The notes under the pieces: generated by a model
Database searches by the model: none
What the model saw: the letters and a program-made list of their open reading frames with translations, nothing else
Told to the model about the DNA's origin: nothing
DNA from: Weeksella massiliensis
Lineage (GTDB): Bacteria > Bacteroidota > Bacteroidia > Flavobacteriales > Weeksellaceae
NCBI GenBank assembly: GCA_000751595.1
Contig: CCMH01000037.1
Span: 62,001-126,000, forward strand
Direction of reading: 5' to 3'
Length of the DNA stretch: 64,000 bases
Position numbers and translations under genes: made by a program
Shown: one piece after another, positions 9,418-17,164 of the stretch
Numbering within the stretch: the stretch's first letter is position 1
Layout: each line of letters starts with the position of its first letter

Positions 9418-12400
9418 ATGGGAAAGAAAAATCGCTCACGTAAGCGAGTTTCACATACAAGTATGCTCGCTTTGCTTGCAACAGTTGTTTTCTCTTCTTG
9501 CGCTACACATACCGTGCAAAGAGGGAAAGATGTAACTACCGATGCAACCAATATAAACTCGAAAATAATTCACTCTTTTTATTTGTTTGGTGATACCAAT
9601 GGACTCGAAAAAAATTCTATACAGTATCAAGCAATAGAAAATGAACTGAAAAAAGCCAAAAAAAATAGTAGTGTTTTTTGGTTAGGAAACAATGCCAAGG
9701 CAGAAGTTTTAGGAAGTCTAAAAGAAGCAACTTCTGCTAAAAATTATGTTTTTAATGGTGAAAATGAATGGAAAGCTGGTTTCGATTCGTTGATTATTAG
9801 AGATTCTGATTATAAAAAACAAGCAATTCAAGTTCTTCCTTCTGGAATTTGCGGAATAGAAACGGTAGAAATCAACGATTCGTTGGCTGTTTTGGCAATT
9901 GATAGCGAGTGGTTTCTGGAAGATTGGAGCGATCATCCGAAAGCTACCGAAAATTGTCCGATCCAAACACGCGAATTGTTTTTCACCGAACTACAAAATA
10001 AACTAAACGATTTTCAGAATAGAACAACAATCATTGCGATGCATCATCCGGTGATTTCTAATGGAAAACATGGTGGTAAATTTTCGATAGAAGATCAATT
10101 ATTTCCTACCAAAAACAGAATTCCGATGCCGGTTGTCGGGACTTTTGTTAATTTGGTTCGAGCAACTTCTGGGCTTACCAATCAAGATTTGCAAAACCAT
10201 CGATACCGAGATTTTGCCCAACGTGTTTCTACGATAATTGGTAAGCGCGACAATGTACTTATTTTTTCTGCACATGATCGTAATTTACAATACCTCCAAA
10301 ACGGAAATGTTCGGCAAGTAATTAGTGGAGCATCGGTAAAAGCGGACGCTGCAAAAGCTGCTGGTAGAAATGATTATTCGAATGGTCAACAAGGTTTTGC
10401 CAAAGTGAATGTGTATGCGAACGGAGCTTCTGAAGTGGAGTTTTTCAATTGGGAAAACGGACAAACGACTTGGGCACATACCCAAGAAATGACTGCGCCA
10501 CGAAAAGAATATTTGGCTGAAGTGTACGATAAAAACATTCCGAAAGAAAAAGTTGTGAGTGTAGTTGATCCGAAAGAATTGAAGAGATCACAAGCATACG
10601 AAACTATTTTCGGGAAACATTATCGGTCGGTGTTTGGAATAGAATTTCCGGTTGAGGCGCTCGATTTGCAGAAAAGAAACATCAAGCCTATTCGAGAAAA
10701 TGTCGATTTGCAAACCGTGAATTTGCGTTTGCAAAACAAGGATAATGCTTTTGTGATGATTCCGGTGCGTAAAAGTGCAACGCAATTAATCCAATCAATT
10801 GCTTACAAAAACGAATATGTCGCGAATGATTTCGAGAATACTTTTACCCAAAAGTTTATCAATGATTTTCAGACTACGCAACATCCTTTTTATCCTTTAA
10901 TTGTTCCAAACATTGCACAGTTGGCCAACGTAAATCAATTGAAATCTTCTCTATATTATGTTCCAAAACAAGAACTTCTGAAAGAATATAATGAGAATTT
11001 TGGGGATGAAATCTATTTGCTCGAGCAATATCCTATCGTAAAAGATACGTTATTAGATTTTACGACAACTGAAGAAGTGTTGAGAAAAATTGTCGTAAAC
11101 AAACATCATAAAATAGATCGAGAACAATACATACGAGCTCGTTTACTCGATATGTTGATTGGCGATTGGAACCGAAATGAAGCGCAATGGAGTTGGAAAA
11201 AATCGATTGAAGGTCAGGATACAATTTATACGCCTTACAGTAAAACGCGCGAATTTATTTTCCCGAAATACGATGGGTTATTTTTTAATTTGTTGATGCG
11301 TTTGGCGCCTTTCCGTCACATGGAAAATTATAAAGATCAGATGAGAAGTGCAAAATGGTTCAATAAAATTGCGTATCCGATCGACATGGCATTGTTGCAA
11401 AATACAACCGAAGAAGAATGGCAAGCTCAAGCAAACTATTTGCAAAACGCCATAAACAAAGAGAGTTTAGAGAAAGCTTTTGCACAGTTGCCAAAAGAAG
11501 TTCAATCGAAAATAGATCATCAAGTCATCGAAATTATGTTAGAACGCAAAAATAAATTGCCTCAATTTGCGTCCGAATATCAAAAAGTGCTCGATAAGTT
11601 AGTCATCCTAAAAGGAACAAATGACGATGAAAAGTTTTTGGTAGAACGCCTTCCGAAAGGTGAAACAAAAGTTTCGATCATTGATAAACAAAGTAATGAA
11701 ACGCTGTTCGAACGAGTTTTTGATCGAAAAAACACCAAAGAAATTCGTCTGTACGGAATGAATGGAAATGATGAATTTGTGCAAAATGGCAAAGGAAATA
11801 ATTTGATAAAAGTTCGAATGATCGGAGGTTTGGACAATGATACCTATCAATTAGACGCTCGTAAAAAAGTAAATGTGTACGATGATAAAAACAATAAAGG
11901 TTTGTCTGATTGGTATGTGTATGATGATTACGAAATCAATACTTATGATTATAAAAATCCGAAATACAATACCTTTACTGTCATTCCTAATGCAGGATAT
12001 AACCCCGATGATGGCGTAAAATTAGGTTTGATTGGTAATTATACTGTGAATGGTTTAGACCGAAAACCGTACTCGCAAAAACATCAAATGCAATTCAATT
12101 ATTTCTTTGCAACGGATGCCTTTGAAGCCAAATATAAAGGGACTTTTATGAAGGCGATTGGCAAATGGAATTTCGATCTCAATGCGTCGTATACTTCGCC
12201 AAGTTTTGCAAATAATTATTTTGGAATGGGAAATGAAACCCTTAATTATCAAAAAGAACGCGATATGGATTACAATCGAGTTCGGATGCAAACTTATAAA
12301 TTAGGACCTTCATTTTTCAAGATTTTTAACAATACCGGTCGATTAGATTTTTTTGCTAATTATCAATTTGCACAAGTCGAAAGAAACTTAGATCGCATCG

Positions 12401-13008
12401 TGAACGATGATCCTTCGATTCATCACAATGTGTTCAATGGACAGAGTTTTGGGGAGGTAGGAGCAAGTTATCTCTTCAGAAACTACGACAATCTTTCTTT
12501 GCCAACGATGGGATTCACGCTTTCTATTTTGGCAAAATGGGTAAATAATTTAGATTATTTCGAACGCAATTTTCAATACGTAGAGGCCAATATTGGTTTC
12601 ACGCACAAACTCACTAATAATGGGCGATTTACCCTTGCGTCTATGGTAAAAGGAAAAGCACTTTTTGGTGATGGGTACGAGTTTTATCAAGCGACGTATA
12701 TCGGTGGCGATCAGGATTTGCGAGGATATCGAGCCGGACGTTTTACGGGCGAGCAAGCCTTTATTCATTCGACAGATCTTCGGTATAATGTTACCAAAAT
12801 CAAAACATTTATTCCTTTGCGATTGGGTGTTTTTACTGGTTTCGATTACGGAAGAATTTGGATGAAAGATGAAAAATCTACCAAATGGCACAACGCTGTT
12901 GGTGGAGGAATTTGGGTAAATGGCGCCCGCTCGATCACAGGAACTTTATCTTTTTTCAAAGGAGAAGATCCTGGGCGTGTCGTTTTCGGACTCAATTTCG
13001 GATTCTAA
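9418..13008 (+). CDS. Outer-membrane lipoprotein: degenerate metallophosphoesterase joined to Omp85-like barrel
   Basis: The 1,196-residue protein has a basic N-terminus, a hydrophobic stretch and a lipobox VFSSC with Cys28. Residues about 52-350 resemble calcineurin-like phosphoesterases of flavobacteria (FYLFGDTNG, IDSEWFLEDW, MHHPVISNGKHGG). Residues about 900-1196 form a beta-barrel with the Omp85-type features IGGDQDLRGYRAGRF and a C-terminal aromatic strand ending in Phe. Several metal-ligand motifs look lost: LGDN is LGNN (89-92), GNHDW is GENEW (114-118) and GHDH is AHDR (285-288). It has its own promoter and terminator. It may be a surface or assembly factor; the function is unknown. 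Confidence 0.82.
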   Translation: MGKKNRSRKRVSHTSMLALLATVVFSSCATHTVQRGKDVTTDATNINSKIIHSFYLFGDTNGLEKNSIQYQAIENELKKAKKNSSVFWLGNNAKAEVLGSLKEATSAKNYVFNGENEWKAGFDSLIIRDSDYKKQAIQVLPSGICGIETVEINDSLAVLAIDSEWFLEDWSDHPKATENCPIQTRELFFTELQNKLNDFQNRTTIIAMHHPVISNGKHGGKFSIEDQLFPTKNRIPMPVVGTFVNLVRATSGLTNQDLQNHRYRDFAQRVSTIIGKRDNVLIFSAHDRNLQYLQNGNVRQVISGASVKADAAKAAGRNDYSNGQQGFAKVNVYANGASEVEFFNWENGQTTWAHTQEMTAPRKEYLAEVYDKNIPKEKVVSVVDPKELKRSQAYETIFGKHYRSVFGIEFPVEALDLQKRNIKPIRENVDLQTVNLRLQNKDNAFVMIPVRKSATQLIQSIAYKNEYVANDFENTFTQKFINDFQTTQHPFYPLIVPNIAQLANVNQLKSSLYYVPKQELLKEYNENFGDEIYLLEQYPIVKDTLLDFTTTEEVLRKIVVNKHHKIDREQYIRARLLDMLIGDWNRNEAQWSWKKSIEGQDTIYTPYSKTREFIFPKYDGLFFNLLMRLAPFRHMENYKDQMRSAKWFNKIAYPIDMALLQNTTEEEWQAQANYLQNAINKESLEKAFAQLPKEVQSKIDHQVIEIMLERKNKLPQFASEYQKVLDKLVILKGTNDDEKFLVERLPKGETKVSIIDKQSNETLFERVFDRKNTKEIRLYGMNGNDEFVQNGKGNNLIKVRMIGGLDNDTYQLDARKKVNVYDDKNNKGLSDWYVYDDYEINTYDYKNPKYNTFTVIPNAGYNPDDGVKLGLIGNYTVNGLDRKPYSQKHQMQFNYFFATDAFEAKYKGTFMKAIGKWNFDLNASYTSPSFANNYFGMGNETLNYQKERDMDYNRVRMQTYKLGPSFFKIFNNTGRLDFFANYQFAQVERNLDRIVNDDPSIHHNVFNGQSFGEVGASYLFRNYDNLSLPTMGFTLSILAKWVNNLDYFERNFQYVEANIGFTHKLTNNGRFTLASMVKGKALFGDGYEFYQATYIGGDQDLRGYRAGRFTGEQAFIHSTDLRYNVTKIKTFIPLRLGVFTGFDYGRIWMKDEKSTKWHNAVGGGIWVNGARSITGTLSFFKGEDPGRVVFGLNFGF

Positions 13009-13093: not shown

Positions 13094-15223
13094 TCAATCA
13101 ATCAAAGAAAGTTGAAATTTCCTGTTTTCTAAATCGATTCCGACCACGGTAACAACCAATTCTTGATGCATGTGAATTTTGCTATTTACATCAGAAATAA
13201 ATTCTTTTGCAATTTTAGACACATGAAGCAAACCATTTTCTTTGATTCCGACATCTACAAAACATCCAAAATGAGTAATGTTTTGCACGATTCCAGGAAC
13301 TTTCGAACCAACTTTCAGATCTTCTAACTTCTTAATTTTTGGGTCGAATGAAAAAACTTTTCCTTGTTTTCTTGGGTCAAGACCTGGTTTTTCTAATTCT
13401 TTGAGCAAATCTTTCAGGTACAATTCACCCATTTCTTTTTGGGTATATTTTTCTATTTCGATGGAAGAAAGAACTTCTTTATTTCCTATCAAATCTTCAC
13501 TTTTCATACCCAAATCCTTCGCCATTTTTTCTACAATAGCATAACTTTCAGGATGAACAGCCGAATTGTCTAGTTTATTTTTTCCGTTTGCAATGCGTAG
13601 AAAAGCCGAAGCCTGTAAAAAGGCTTTTTCGCCAAAACGTGGAACTTTCAATAAGTCTTTTCGACTATTAAAAGGGCCATTTTCGGTACGATATTGAACA
13701 ATATTCTCAGCAAGTTTTTTCCCGATTCCCGAAACATATTGCAGCAAATGAGCGCTCGCCGTATTGAGATTTACCCCAACTTGGTTTACACAAAACATCA
13801 CCATTTGGTCGAGTTCTTCTTTGAGCAAAGTTTGGTTAACATCGTGTTGATATTGTCCAACACCGATAGCTTTGGGTTCTATTTTTACCAATTCGGCCAA
13901 CGGATCAGAAAGGCGACGACCAATAGAAACTGCGCCACGAACCGTAATATCTTTATCCGGAAATTCTTCGCGGGCAATTGCAGAAGCCGAATAAACAGAC
14001 GCACCAGCCTCGCTAACCACAAAAACATGAAGCGGTTTATCGAAAGCAATTTTCTGGATAAAATGTTCTGTTTCTCTCGAAGCGGTTCCGTTACCAATCG
14101 CAATTGCTTCTATTTGGTAAGCATTGACCAACGAACGGATTTTCTTTTGTGAGGGAATCGATTCGTTTTTCGGCGCATGCGGATAAATATTTTCGTTGTG
14201 CAATAATCCTCCATTTTCATCCAAACAAACCACTTTACATCCCGACTTGAAACCTGGATCTATCGCCAAAATTCTTTTCTCTCCATACGGGGATGCAAGC
14301 AATAATTGTTGCAAGTTTTTAGAGAAGATAGAAATAGATTGAGCATCTGCTTCTGCTTTGGCTTGTTGCATGAGTTCGGTTGTCAGCGAAGGTTCTAAGT
14401 ATTTTGTGTACGCATCTTTGCAAGCTGTTTCGAGATATTTTTGTACTTCTTTTTGTTGCGTTTTGATGACTCTTTGTTCGATGATTTCTAAAGCTTGTTG
14501 TTGGTCGAATGCTAATTTCACACGTAACAAACCTTCGCTTTCACCTCTTAGAACTGCCAATAACCGATGGGCAGGAATTCTTTTTAGCGGCTCTTCAAAA
14601 TCGAAATAATTAGAAAATTTACTTGCATTTTCTTCCGATTCTTTGCCTTTGATCAAGTGACTTGTTATTGATCCTTCATGGAACATTGCTTTACGCAATT
14701 GTTTTCGTACGCCTTCATGTTCATTAATCCATTGAGCAATAATATGTTTCACACCATCCAAAGCATCTTTTGTTGTTGTTATTTCTCGATTTAGATATTT
14801 TTTTGGTAAATTCTCCCAATCCAATTGTGTGTTTTGCTTCATGATAATCTTAGCCAAAGGCATCAAACCATTATCAATCGCAGTATTAGCCAGCGTTTTT
14901 CTTTTCTTTTTATAGGGCAAATACCAATCTTCTAATTGAGTTGCATCATAGCAATTTTCTATTTTGACCCGTAATTCATCGGTTAATTTATCTTGTTCTT
15001 GAATACTTTCGAGGATACTTTGCTTGCGTTTTTCTAAGGTTTCAAAATTATTTTTCTTCTTTAGAATTGTCGATAATGCAACCTCGTCCAAGTTGCCTGT
15101 TTGGTCTTTTCGGTATCTTGCAATAAAAGGAATTGTAGCATCTTGCTCGAAAAGCGACAAAACATTGCTAAGAATTTTTATCGGAATTTGGGTTTCTTTT
15201 TCTAAATACGTTTCTATCGTCAT
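13094..15223 (-). CDS. tex: Tex-family S1 RNA-binding protein
   Basis: Tex/YhgF is a conserved bacterial protein related to eukaryotic Spt6 that binds nucleic acid and affects transcription. The order fits the family: an N-terminal helical region (FIARYRKDQTGNLDE, LEDWYLPYKKKRKT), a YqgF/RNase-H-like domain (ILAIDPGFKSGCKV), helix-hairpin-helix repeats (VGVNLNTASAHLLQYVSGIG) and a C-terminal S1 domain (GSKVPGIVQNITHFGCFVDV). The 709 residues are close to the usual length. It converges on the preceding + strand gene and diverges from the thioesterase locus. Confidence 0.96.
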   Translation of the reverse strand: MTIETYLEKETQIPIKILSNVLSLFEQDATIPFIARYRKDQTGNLDEVALSTILKKKNNFETLEKRKQSILESIQEQDKLTDELRVKIENCYDATQLEDWYLPYKKKRKTLANTAIDNGLMPLAKIIMKQNTQLDWENLPKKYLNREITTTKDALDGVKHIIAQWINEHEGVRKQLRKAMFHEGSITSHLIKGKESEENASKFSNYFDFEEPLKRIPAHRLLAVLRGESEGLLRVKLAFDQQQALEIIEQRVIKTQQKEVQKYLETACKDAYTKYLEPSLTTELMQQAKAEADAQSISIFSKNLQQLLLASPYGEKRILAIDPGFKSGCKVVCLDENGGLLHNENIYPHAPKNESIPSQKKIRSLVNAYQIEAIAIGNGTASRETEHFIQKIAFDKPLHVFVVSEAGASVYSASAIAREEFPDKDITVRGAVSIGRRLSDPLAELVKIEPKAIGVGQYQHDVNQTLLKEELDQMVMFCVNQVGVNLNTASAHLLQYVSGIGKKLAENIVQYRTENGPFNSRKDLLKVPRFGEKAFLQASAFLRIANGKNKLDNSAVHPESYAIVEKMAKDLGMKSEDLIGNKEVLSSIEIEKYTQKEMGELYLKDLLKELEKPGLDPRKQGKVFSFDPKIKKLEDLKVGSKVPGIVQNITHFGCFVDVGIKENGLLHVSKIAKEFISDVNSKIHMHQELVVTVVGIDLENRKFQLSLID

Positions 15224-15338: not shown

Positions 15339-15463
15339 TAAATTTGTAAAATTAAAAACCTTGTTCTATATTCGTAACAGAGAACTAAGATGAGTTTTTA
15401 GTGTTAATTGAACAAAAAACAATCAGAAGGGGTTTTGGCATTTTGCCGAACCTCTTTTTTTTA
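15339..15463 (+). ncRNA. Candidate structured leader or small RNA ending in a terminator
   Basis: A TAAATTTG -7 element (15339-15346) is followed by about 110 bases without a gene, ending in a strong intrinsic terminator. The segment folds as nested arms: TTGTTC (15361-15366) with GAACAA (15410-15415), TAAC (15375-15378) with GTTA (15403-15406), and ACTAA (15384-15388) with TTAGT (15398-15402). The only ATG inside opens a three-codon frame. No -33 box is seen. It could be an independent small RNA or a transcription-attenuated leader of the thioesterase gene that starts 28 bases later. I cannot match it to a named RNA family. Confidence 0.42.
15427..15462 (+). terminator. Terminator upstream of the thioesterase gene
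   Basis: The stem AAGGGGTT-GGC pairs with GCC-GAACCTCTT with one bulged T and two G-T pairs, and ends in eight Ts. No protein gene precedes it on this strand: tex is divergent. Confidence 0.8.
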
Positions 15464-15490
15464 TGAACTTGTCTACAAAATTACAGTATT

Positions 15491-15919
15491 ATGGCAAGAA
15501 TAAAAGTAGAGGTCGCTGAAAACTCTATTTTTCAAACAATGATTCCGGTTCGCATTACCGATCTCAATTACGGAAATCATTTGGCAAACGATGCTTTGTT
15601 ATCGATTATTCATGAAGCGCGTGTGCAGTTTCTTCAATCTCTTGGTTATTCTGAACAAGATTTAGCAGGAGTTGGTTTGATAATGGCCGATGTTGCAATA
15701 GAGTATAAAGCACAAGGTTTTTATGGTGATCAATTGAAGATTGATGTAGGGGTAAAAGATGTCAGTCGAGTTAGTTTTGATGTCACCTATCGCATAACAA
15801 AAATAGATAACGATCAAGAAATCATTGTAGCAAAAGCCAAAACAGGAATGGTTACTTTTGATTATTCGCAAAACAAAGTGGTCGAAATTCCAACTACATT
15901 TTTAGAAAAACTACCATAA
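15491..15919 (+). CDS. Hotdog-fold acyl-CoA thioesterase
   Basis: The 142-residue protein has the 4-hydroxybenzoyl-CoA thioesterase-like hotdog pattern: RITDLNYGNHLANDALLSII (the helix-preceding motif with Asp and His), then HEARVQFLQSLGY. Family members hydrolyse acyl-CoA thioesters in the cytosol; the chain preference cannot be read from sequence. The gene lies just downstream of an intrinsic terminator that may attenuate it. It is followed 33 bases later by a methyltransferase gene with its own -7 element. Confidence 0.85.
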   Translation: MARIKVEVAENSIFQTMIPVRITDLNYGNHLANDALLSIIHEARVQFLQSLGYSEQDLAGVGLIMADVAIEYKAQGFYGDQLKIDVGVKDVSRVSFDVTYRITKIDNDQEIIVAKAKTGMVTFDYSQNKVVEIPTTFLEKLP

Positions 15920-15937: not shown

Positions 15938-15945
15938 TATCTTTG
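15938..15945 (+). promoter_or_regulatory. -7 element (TATCTTTG), nearly leaderless
   Basis: An exact TAnnTTTG ends seven bases before the ATG at 15953. The expected transcription start is at or next to the start codon, so the mRNA may be leaderless. Confidence 0.6.
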
Positions 15946-15952
15946 CAATCTT

Positions 15953-17164
15953 ATGAAGATATTACCATTTAGAAACTTATTTGTAGGAATAATCGATACA
16001 CTGAGTCAGGTTTTTTTTGAGGGCAAATATGCCGATAAAGAATTAGAACGCGTACTAAAATCTAACCGAGCTTGGGGTGCGAGAGATCGTGCATTTATTG
16101 CCGAAACGGTTTATGATTTAGTTCGTTGGAAACGTTTGGTAGAAGGATCTATGAGTAAACCTTTGACCAAAGATACGCTTTGGGAATTTGTGGGTACTTG
16201 GTTTATCATGAATATGGCAGAGGAACAACATTTGCCAAATTGGGACGAATTTCGTCATCTCAATCCAAAAGAAATTATCAAACGTCATCATCAATCGGCA
16301 AAGAATCTTGCAGTAGCACAATCTTTTCCGGATTGGTTGTATGCTTTGGGTGAAAAAGAATTGGGTGCACAATGGGTGAAAGAGGTAGAAGCTCTCAATC
16401 AACAAGCGCCAACCGTTATTCGGGTAAATACCTTGAAGATCGATAGAAAATCTCTGCAAAAAGAATTGAAAGAGAATCGTATCAAAACACATGTTTTATC
16501 CAAATTTCAAGATGCTTTAGAGTTGGATGAAAAAATGAATATCTTCCGTACGGATGCTTTCCAAAATGGATATTTCGAGATTCAAGATGCTGGATCGCAA
16601 CTCATAGCTCCTTTTTTGCGTGTAGAAGCAGGTCAGCGTGTTGTTGATGCTTGCGCAGGGGCTGGAGGAAAAACTTTACATTTGGCTTCGTTGATGAAAA
16701 ATAAAGGCCAAATCATTGCGATGGATGTTCATGAATGGAAACTGAAAGAACTAAAAAAACGCGCTAAACGTAACAATGTGCAGAATGTGCAAACGAAAGT
16801 AATCGAAGCTAAAACCATCAAAAGAATGGAGGAGTCTTGCGATCGTTTATTGATTGATGCACCTTGTAGTGGTTTGGGAGTTCTCAAAAGAAATCCTGAT
16901 GCGAAATGGAAATTGCAACCTGAATTTATCGAAAATATCAAAAACGAACAAGCTAAAATATTGGATAGCTACTCGAAAATGGTTAAAAAAGGAGGGATGA
17001 TGGTTTATGCAACCTGTTCTATTTTACCATCTGAAAATCAAGAACAAGTAGAAAAGTTTTTGGCGAATCATCCAGAATATACATTGATTCAGGATAAACA
17101 ATATTTACCATCAGAATATGGTTATGATGGATTTTATATGGCTTTGATGGAAAGAATCTCATAA
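15953..17164 (+). CDS. RsmB/NOP-family rRNA (cytosine-C5) methyltransferase
   Basis: A SAM-dependent m5C RNA methyltransferase of 403 residues. The SAM-binding motif is VVDACAGAGGKTLHLASLM (near residues 228-246). The two family cysteines are both present, one in LIDAPCSGLG and one in VYATCSILPSENQEQV. The N-terminal 150 residues are helical and related to the NusB-like part of RsmB. The target is probably 16S rRNA, but RsmB and other NOP-type enzymes cannot be separated here. It ends with a strong terminator. Confidence 0.9.
   Translation: MKILPFRNLFVGIIDTLSQVFFEGKYADKELERVLKSNRAWGARDRAFIAETVYDLVRWKRLVEGSMSKPLTKDTLWEFVGTWFIMNMAEEQHLPNWDEFRHLNPKEIIKRHHQSAKNLAVAQSFPDWLYALGEKELGAQWVKEVEALNQQAPTVIRVNTLKIDRKSLQKELKENRIKTHVLSKFQDALELDEKMNIFRTDAFQNGYFEIQDAGSQLIAPFLRVEAGQRVVDACAGAGGKTLHLASLMKNKGQIIAMDVHEWKLKELKKRAKRNNVQNVQTKVIEAKTIKRMEESCDRLLIDAPCSGLGVLKRNPDAKWKLQPEFIENIKNEQAKILDSYSKMVKKGGMMVYATCSILPSENQEQVEKFLANHPEYTLIQDKQYLPSEYGYDGFYMALMERIS

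Follow-up and report, generated by a model that had tools for sequence, protein, structure and literature searches.

The small RNA described here has several known counterparts among the Bacteroidetes. One is GibS of Bacteroides thetaiotaomicron, whose conserved single-stranded 5′ seed pairs with translation starts in a genus without obvious Hfq, according to the portion of the GibS report used here (PMC7366714). A second is Rfp18 of Flavobacterium psychrophilum, presented in the consulted text of PMC9723704 as an independent, structured flavobacterial small RNA conserved beyond its species; in these respects it resembles the RNA described below. A third, 6S-flavo, is listed for Bacteroidetes in the section of PMC2864571 that we draw on. 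No paper on small RNAs of Weeksella or Empedobacter was evident in one open-access library, searched through titles and abstract openings.

Here we analyse a locus of Weeksella massiliensis (contig C37:62001-126000 of genome G000), a stretch of 64,000 nucleotides that we refer to as the window. Judging from sequence comparison, we are fairly confident that positions 15379-15461 of the plus strand encode an independent small RNA, served by a promoter and a terminator of its own.

Results

Gene neighbourhood

The candidate RNA is surrounded by three genes: tex, a thioesterase gene and rsmB. The features of the locus are as follows.

13094-15223, minus strand: tex, with Pfam Tex domains and its ATG at 15223; divergent neighbour and syntenic anchor
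15343-15346, plus strand: TTTG, the -33 element of the small RNA promoter, as read from the sequence
15367-15374, plus strand: -7 element TATATTCG, with 5 of 6 letters of the consensus TAnnTTTG
15379-15461, plus strand: predicted small RNA of about 83 nt, its start taken from the -7 box and its end placed within the T run
15379-15388, plus strand: conserved 5′ tail AGAGAACUAA, the proposed pairing region; AGAGA is invariant in 16 of 16 aligned sequences
15389-15424, plus strand: stem P1 with its loop (pairs 15389-15391/15422-15424 and 15394-15399/15415-15420), from the minimum-energy fold starting at A15379
15425-15462, plus strand: intrinsic terminator, a 15-pair hairpin (15425-15458) with a run of eight T (15455-15462)
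15464-15471, plus strand: degenerate -7-like box TGAACTTG ahead of the thioesterase gene, with 4 of 6 letters, about where relatives have an exact box
15491-15919, plus strand: thioesterase gene, Pfam 4HBT_2 (PF13279, E 3.3e-23), ATG at 15491
15953-17164, plus strand: RsmB/F-type 16S rRNA methyltransferase gene (rsmB; PF01189, E 1.9e-49), downstream of the thioesterase gene

The first-pass annotation of this DNA had seen no plus-strand protein gene directly before the element, and this holds because tex is divergent. It had also put the thioesterase gene 28 bases downstream, which matches the distance from its end of the element, 15463, to the ATG. Across the 17 homologous loci described below, tblastn located divergent tex upstream and rsmB downstream of the RNA in every case and an adjoining thioesterase gene in 16, the exception being genome G076.

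Two further observations concern the surroundings. An exact -7 box, TATCTTTG, at 15938-15945 of the window ends 7 nt ahead of the rsmB ATG, which suggests that rsmB has its own promoter and a very short leader. On the far side of tex, positions 9418-13008 hold a 1196-residue frame without a Pfam match at E up to 0.001.

Promoter, start and end of the RNA

The promoter is of the Bacteroidetes (sigma-A) type. The -7 element reported at first pass is present, together with a -33 partner that it had not named, and a 20-nt spacer separates the two in the window. Judged from sequence only, all 17 homologues have a -33/-7 pair at 19-20 nt spacing ahead of the RNA. The TTTG is exact in 15 of them (TTTT in G002 and G113), and the -7 box has 5 or 6 of 6 consensus letters in all 17, a score taken as the best of 21 positions without a shuffle control.

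In the part of PMC9723704 consulted, the -7 box occupies -12 to -5 relative to the transcription start. Applied to the window, this spacing gives a predicted start at A15379 and an RNA of about 83 nt, and the predicted start falls on the conserved AGAGA. The covariance-model match in the window spans 15372-15463 (59.8 bits); the aligned element measures 104-115 nt in the other genus that carries the RNA (Empedobacter, Chishuiella, Algoriella and Faecalibacter). The strong intrinsic terminator claimed earlier was confirmed by the 15-pair hairpin and its eight T. RNA polymerase would start at about A15379, stop in the T run at about 15461 and release an RNA of 83 nt.

Homologues in two genera

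With the DNA of the element as query, only G001 (taken to be W. virosa) matched besides the genome itself among 39 relatives. Using the thioesterase as query led to loci whose upstream DNA carries the same element. Alignment A1 comprises 16 of the 17 homologues, G076 being left out. What all 16 have in common is the 5′ AGAGA and a U tract with a UUAAUGUUAA-like stretch after it; the sequence of the terminator varies between groups of homologues. G002 and the other genus have a longer conserved 5′ tail, which reads AGGUAGUAGAGAG.

From the aligned loci we built a covariance model, R1, and searched genomes irrespective of the neighbouring gene. R1 found the RNA in 3 of 3 genomes examined of the window's Weeksella-type genus and in 14 of 14 examined of the Empedobacter/Chishuiella/Algoriella/Faecalibacter genus. 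At the family level (296 genomes, 33 genera), 22 genomes matched at E up to 0.01 and 17 were convincing. The matches in G049, G218, G222, G259 and G278 were set aside, as they have in common a terminator-like hairpin and lack the 5′ motif; the weak match in G259 also shares an AT-rich run. Apart from the window's genome, none of 296 genomes sampled from the order had a convincing match to R1, and a 40.6-bit match in G527 was rejected for want of a shared motif. The class search (395 genomes) returned the window's genome and one weak match only; G870, at 40.3 bits, was discarded as being without the 5′ motif. A pattern search of the class with the Empedobacter form matched 1 of 395 genomes, with three mismatches, and this pattern also missed the window's own diverged copy. 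Because these large searches scored 9 or 13 candidates in each genome, they may have overlooked diverged homologues. A deeper search of 40 genomes, with 96 candidates scored in each, yielded a match at E up to 1 in 23; outside the two genera no match was better than 0.005, and five such matches were read as sequence. At some homologous loci, weak opposite-strand matches overlap the RNA.

A second copy of the RNA is not evident from the sequence of the W. massiliensis genome. The 5′ motif has its best match there at this locus (one mismatch), followed by a single place with two mismatches and by others with three; the totals are 9 forward and 2 reverse matches against 7 and 4 for the control. 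Separately, weak model matches at G000 C37:180333-180439 and G001 C1:1825732-1825838 are by sequence a lysine tRNA, whose GUAGAG and UUUUAAUGUU recur in the Empedobacter form of the RNA, a likeness probably due to chance.

Predicted fold

None of 200 dinucleotide shuffles folds as well as the element in either of the two versions that we folded, with z -3.3 for the version from 15373 and z -3.0 for the longer version from 15340. The minimum-energy fold from 15373 consists of one 5′ hairpin and the terminator, and the fold from 15340 adds one pairing that draws on promoter DNA upstream of the likely start. Three nested helices had been proposed for the element; the fold backed by homologues instead has one stem (15389-15424) and then the terminator. 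Starting at A15379, the minimum-energy fold of the window RNA (-21.9 kcal/mol) contains P1, and with starts upstream of 15379 a competing 5′ hairpin beats P1. For W. virosa, the P1 form and an alternative form are equal at -20.4. A second hairpin, P2, lies inside P1 in 5 of 5 sequences folded from the other genus, with the terminator, P3, downstream of the stem. P2 is absent from the window's genus, and G002 has P1 and P3.

The state of the 5′ tail depends on the fold considered. It is unpaired in the window fold from 15379 and paired in the fold from 15373. Of seven homologues folded, two from the other genus (L011, L093) have a minimum-energy fold in which part of the tail pairs with the terminator U run, as does G076; in the centroid folds of the first two the tail is unpaired. 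RNAalifold recovered the terminator from A1, with another short 5′ hairpin in place of P1.

Covariation and conservation

The covariance search in relatives that had been put forward as a check found homologues in 17 of 17 genomes and base pairs changed on both sides at a level above shuffles. For this comparison we used a model-fitted alignment, A2, in which merging identical rows left 14 of 17 sequences. The model structure derives from one folded Empedobacter sequence, and fitting A2 to this structure makes its pair counts lean towards it. With this leaning, 94.4% of cells in A2 (14 distinct sequences) are paired, and both partners have changed in 12 of 27 pairs; shuffles give 3.8 such pairs (sd 1.3), and none of 500 reaches 12. 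When the structure is slid along the alignment, no more than 57.4% of cells are paired and no more than 3 pairs are doubly changed. Further pair types number 18 against 17.6 in shuffles, a value reached by 253 of 500. By helix, both partners have changed in 5 of 11 consensus pairs of the P3 terminator (96.1% of cells paired), in 5 pairs of P2 (other genus) and in 2 of 11 pairs of P1 (91.9% paired). Support for the predicted structure, as read from these changes, is strongest for P3 and P2 and weaker for P1.

Conservation at the primary level was also compared. Between the window and W. virosa, identity is 92.9% over the RNA, 78.0% over the tex-side spacer, 86.0% over the first 50 thioesterase codons and 96.6% over the gap from terminator to ATG; because the gap exceeds the RNA, leader control or read-through would also fit this pair. 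E. tilapiae, compared with 7 of the 13 other genomes of its genus, has RNA identities of 77.1 to 98.1%, above spacer, gap and thioesterase codons in 7 of 7. The RNA is more conserved than the tex-side spacer in all 8 pairs compared. Within A1, the U tracts differ by single-nucleotide length changes, on which account we set aside a protein-coding role.

These data bear on the reading that a chance terminator beside an AT-rich spacer accounts for the locus and has no function. The element is short and AT-rich, and terminators are common. Against this stand its occurrence in 17 of 17 genomes, the compensating changes and a conservation above that of the tex-side spacer, and we regard such an origin as very improbable. 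The earlier proposal of an independent small RNA of about 110 bases fares better: its independence is supported by the 17 genomes, the promoter and terminator of its own and the compensating changes, although the size has to be reduced to about 83 nt here.

Relation to the thioesterase gene

The RNA could alternatively be an attenuating 5′ leader, as was also proposed at first pass. Transcription from the promoter at 15343-15374 would then usually stop at the terminator and, depending on a signal, read through into the thioesterase gene. Consistent with a leader, that gene has the same orientation, lies across a 28-nt gap and is adjacent in 16 of 17 genomes. A classic attenuator requires an upstream segment that pairs with the first arm of the terminator. 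We sought such an antiterminator upstream of that arm and found no good pairing in 17 of 17 sequences, a test that covers alternative base pairing only and not protein- or ribosome-driven attenuators. The best upstream duplexes have energies of -2.8 to -5.5 kcal/mol, which 30 to 96% of shuffles match, depending on the sequence; the terminator hairpins have -10.1 to -17.7 kcal/mol. In A1, moreover, the terminator stem varies next to an almost invariant 5′ part, a combination that a pairing antiterminator would not permit.

The thioesterase gene also appears to have a promoter of its own in most relatives. An exact TAnnTTTG lies between terminator and thioesterase at 14 of the 16 loci having that gene, a match that single-base shuffles reach in 1.6 to 6.6% per locus. 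This second box has 4 of 6 letters in the window and 5 of 6 in W. virosa, no better than shuffles in either (0.974 and 0.35), so it is degenerate in 2 of 3 genomes of the window's genus, and read-through into the thioesterase gene is possible in these species. In G076, ahead of an unrelated frame, it is likewise no better than shuffles (0.808).

G076 is informative in another way. It keeps the RNA between tex and rsmB with the thioesterase missing; tblastn found no trace of that gene at the locus, and the nearest thioesterase relatives elsewhere in the genome are 24 and 27% identical. Of all the evidence, this single case speaks most clearly against the RNA being there to serve the thioesterase. 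Control by the RNA of whatever gene stands downstream may be compatible with G076, and with tex and rsmB flanking the RNA at 17 of 17 loci, the claim of independence is limited to the thioesterase. In place of that gene, G076 has an 89-residue frame without a Pfam match (L151 8557-8826).

Taken with the lack of an antiterminator, the exact box at 14 loci and G076, the leader is disfavoured and we think it quite unlikely, even with the weak -7 box and the highly conserved terminator-to-ATG gap of the window's species and W. virosa on its side. A literature search on thioesterase and transcription attenuation turned up a single paper, which by its title concerns Chlamydia and tryptophan.

A mixed arrangement overlaps with our main reading: the small RNA would be independent, and leakage through its terminator would in addition feed the thioesterase gene in Weeksella, where the second promoter has decayed. 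The degenerate second box in 2 of 3 genomes of the genus and the conserved gap between the window and W. virosa would agree with it, whereas eight T behind a 15-pair hairpin suggest efficient termination. We consider this arrangement rather unlikely, and favour an independent small RNA to which the thioesterase gene is probably a neighbour and not the gene under control. That neighbour would have its own promoter in most species examined.

Comparison with known RNA families

Searched with Rfam 15 at gathering score, the whole window yielded two tRNAs only, and five homologous loci searched at E up to 1 gave one match, off the RNA. The two best sub-threshold scores come from a hairpin followed by a U run: the patAB leader (RF02907; 21.9 bits against a gathering score of 92, E 0.34) and rli61 (RF01485; 17.4 bits against 50, E 1.3). 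Both are at chance level and were rejected.

A 6S RNA, which would bind RNA polymerase, has a similar size and independent transcription, and 6S-Flavo (RF01685) is also a small independent Bacteroidetes RNA. No RF01685 match occurs at the locus at E up to 10, and the one 6S-Flavo-like match of the genome sits at a separate locus on another contig; we judge this identity extremely improbable. The match in question (G000 C5:56869-56995, L083 1501-1627) scores 45.5 bits with E 6.2e-6, below the gathering score of 85, so the 6S RNA of the genus may be too diverged for the Rfam cut-off.

Hfq and candidate targets

An Hfq search (PF17209) matched 0 of 40 relatives, the window's genome included, and 5 of 14 control genomes. 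By analogy with GibS, we infer that the conserved 5′ part is the pairing region. Provided that the RNA is independent, the same analogy makes action in trans by base-pairing with mRNAs the probable mode. The conserved 5′ part and the conserved stretch inside P1 would pair with mRNAs encoded elsewhere, and this pairing would alter their translation or stability without Hfq.

At 10 loci, neither the thioesterase start nor that of rsmB showed consistent pairing with the RNA, and at one of them this test left rsmB unlocated; shuffles were as strong in fractions of 0.06 to 0.99. A whole-genome search with a complement pattern gave totals below the reversed-pattern control in 5 of 5 genomes, with one of ten strand counts above it (G001 forward, 75 vs 67). 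The pattern suits only the Weeksella form, and the counts therefore say little on targets.

Discussion

Our analysis points to a small RNA gene that recurs in every genome examined of two genera and has boundaries defined at the sequence level, which makes the family an object for testing how small RNAs work where Hfq has not been detected. More tentatively, as a possibility that we would not yet rank as probable, the RNA may be a lineage-wide post-transcriptional regulator of Weeksella and Empedobacter that reaches several mRNAs through its long conserved 5′ pairing region, with no detectable Hfq. If this is true, the RNA would mark out a network of small RNAs that operates in Flavobacteriales without Hfq.

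We read the RNA as a new family of a known kind, the intergenic bacterial small RNAs, with no matching Rfam family; Rfp18 and GibS were compared by description. Rfp18 differs in that the consulted text of PMC9723704 places its predicted pairing region in the third stem-loop, whereas here the 5′ part is proposed. GibS comes from another species and another locus, and its likeness, again taken from the portion of PMC7366714 used, is one of description. It has a non-canonical PM2 promoter and is largely unstructured, whereas the RNA described here has a sigma-A-type promoter and a long stem. Common to both is an intergenic Bacteroidetes small RNA with a conserved 5′ part, encoded in a genus without obvious Hfq.
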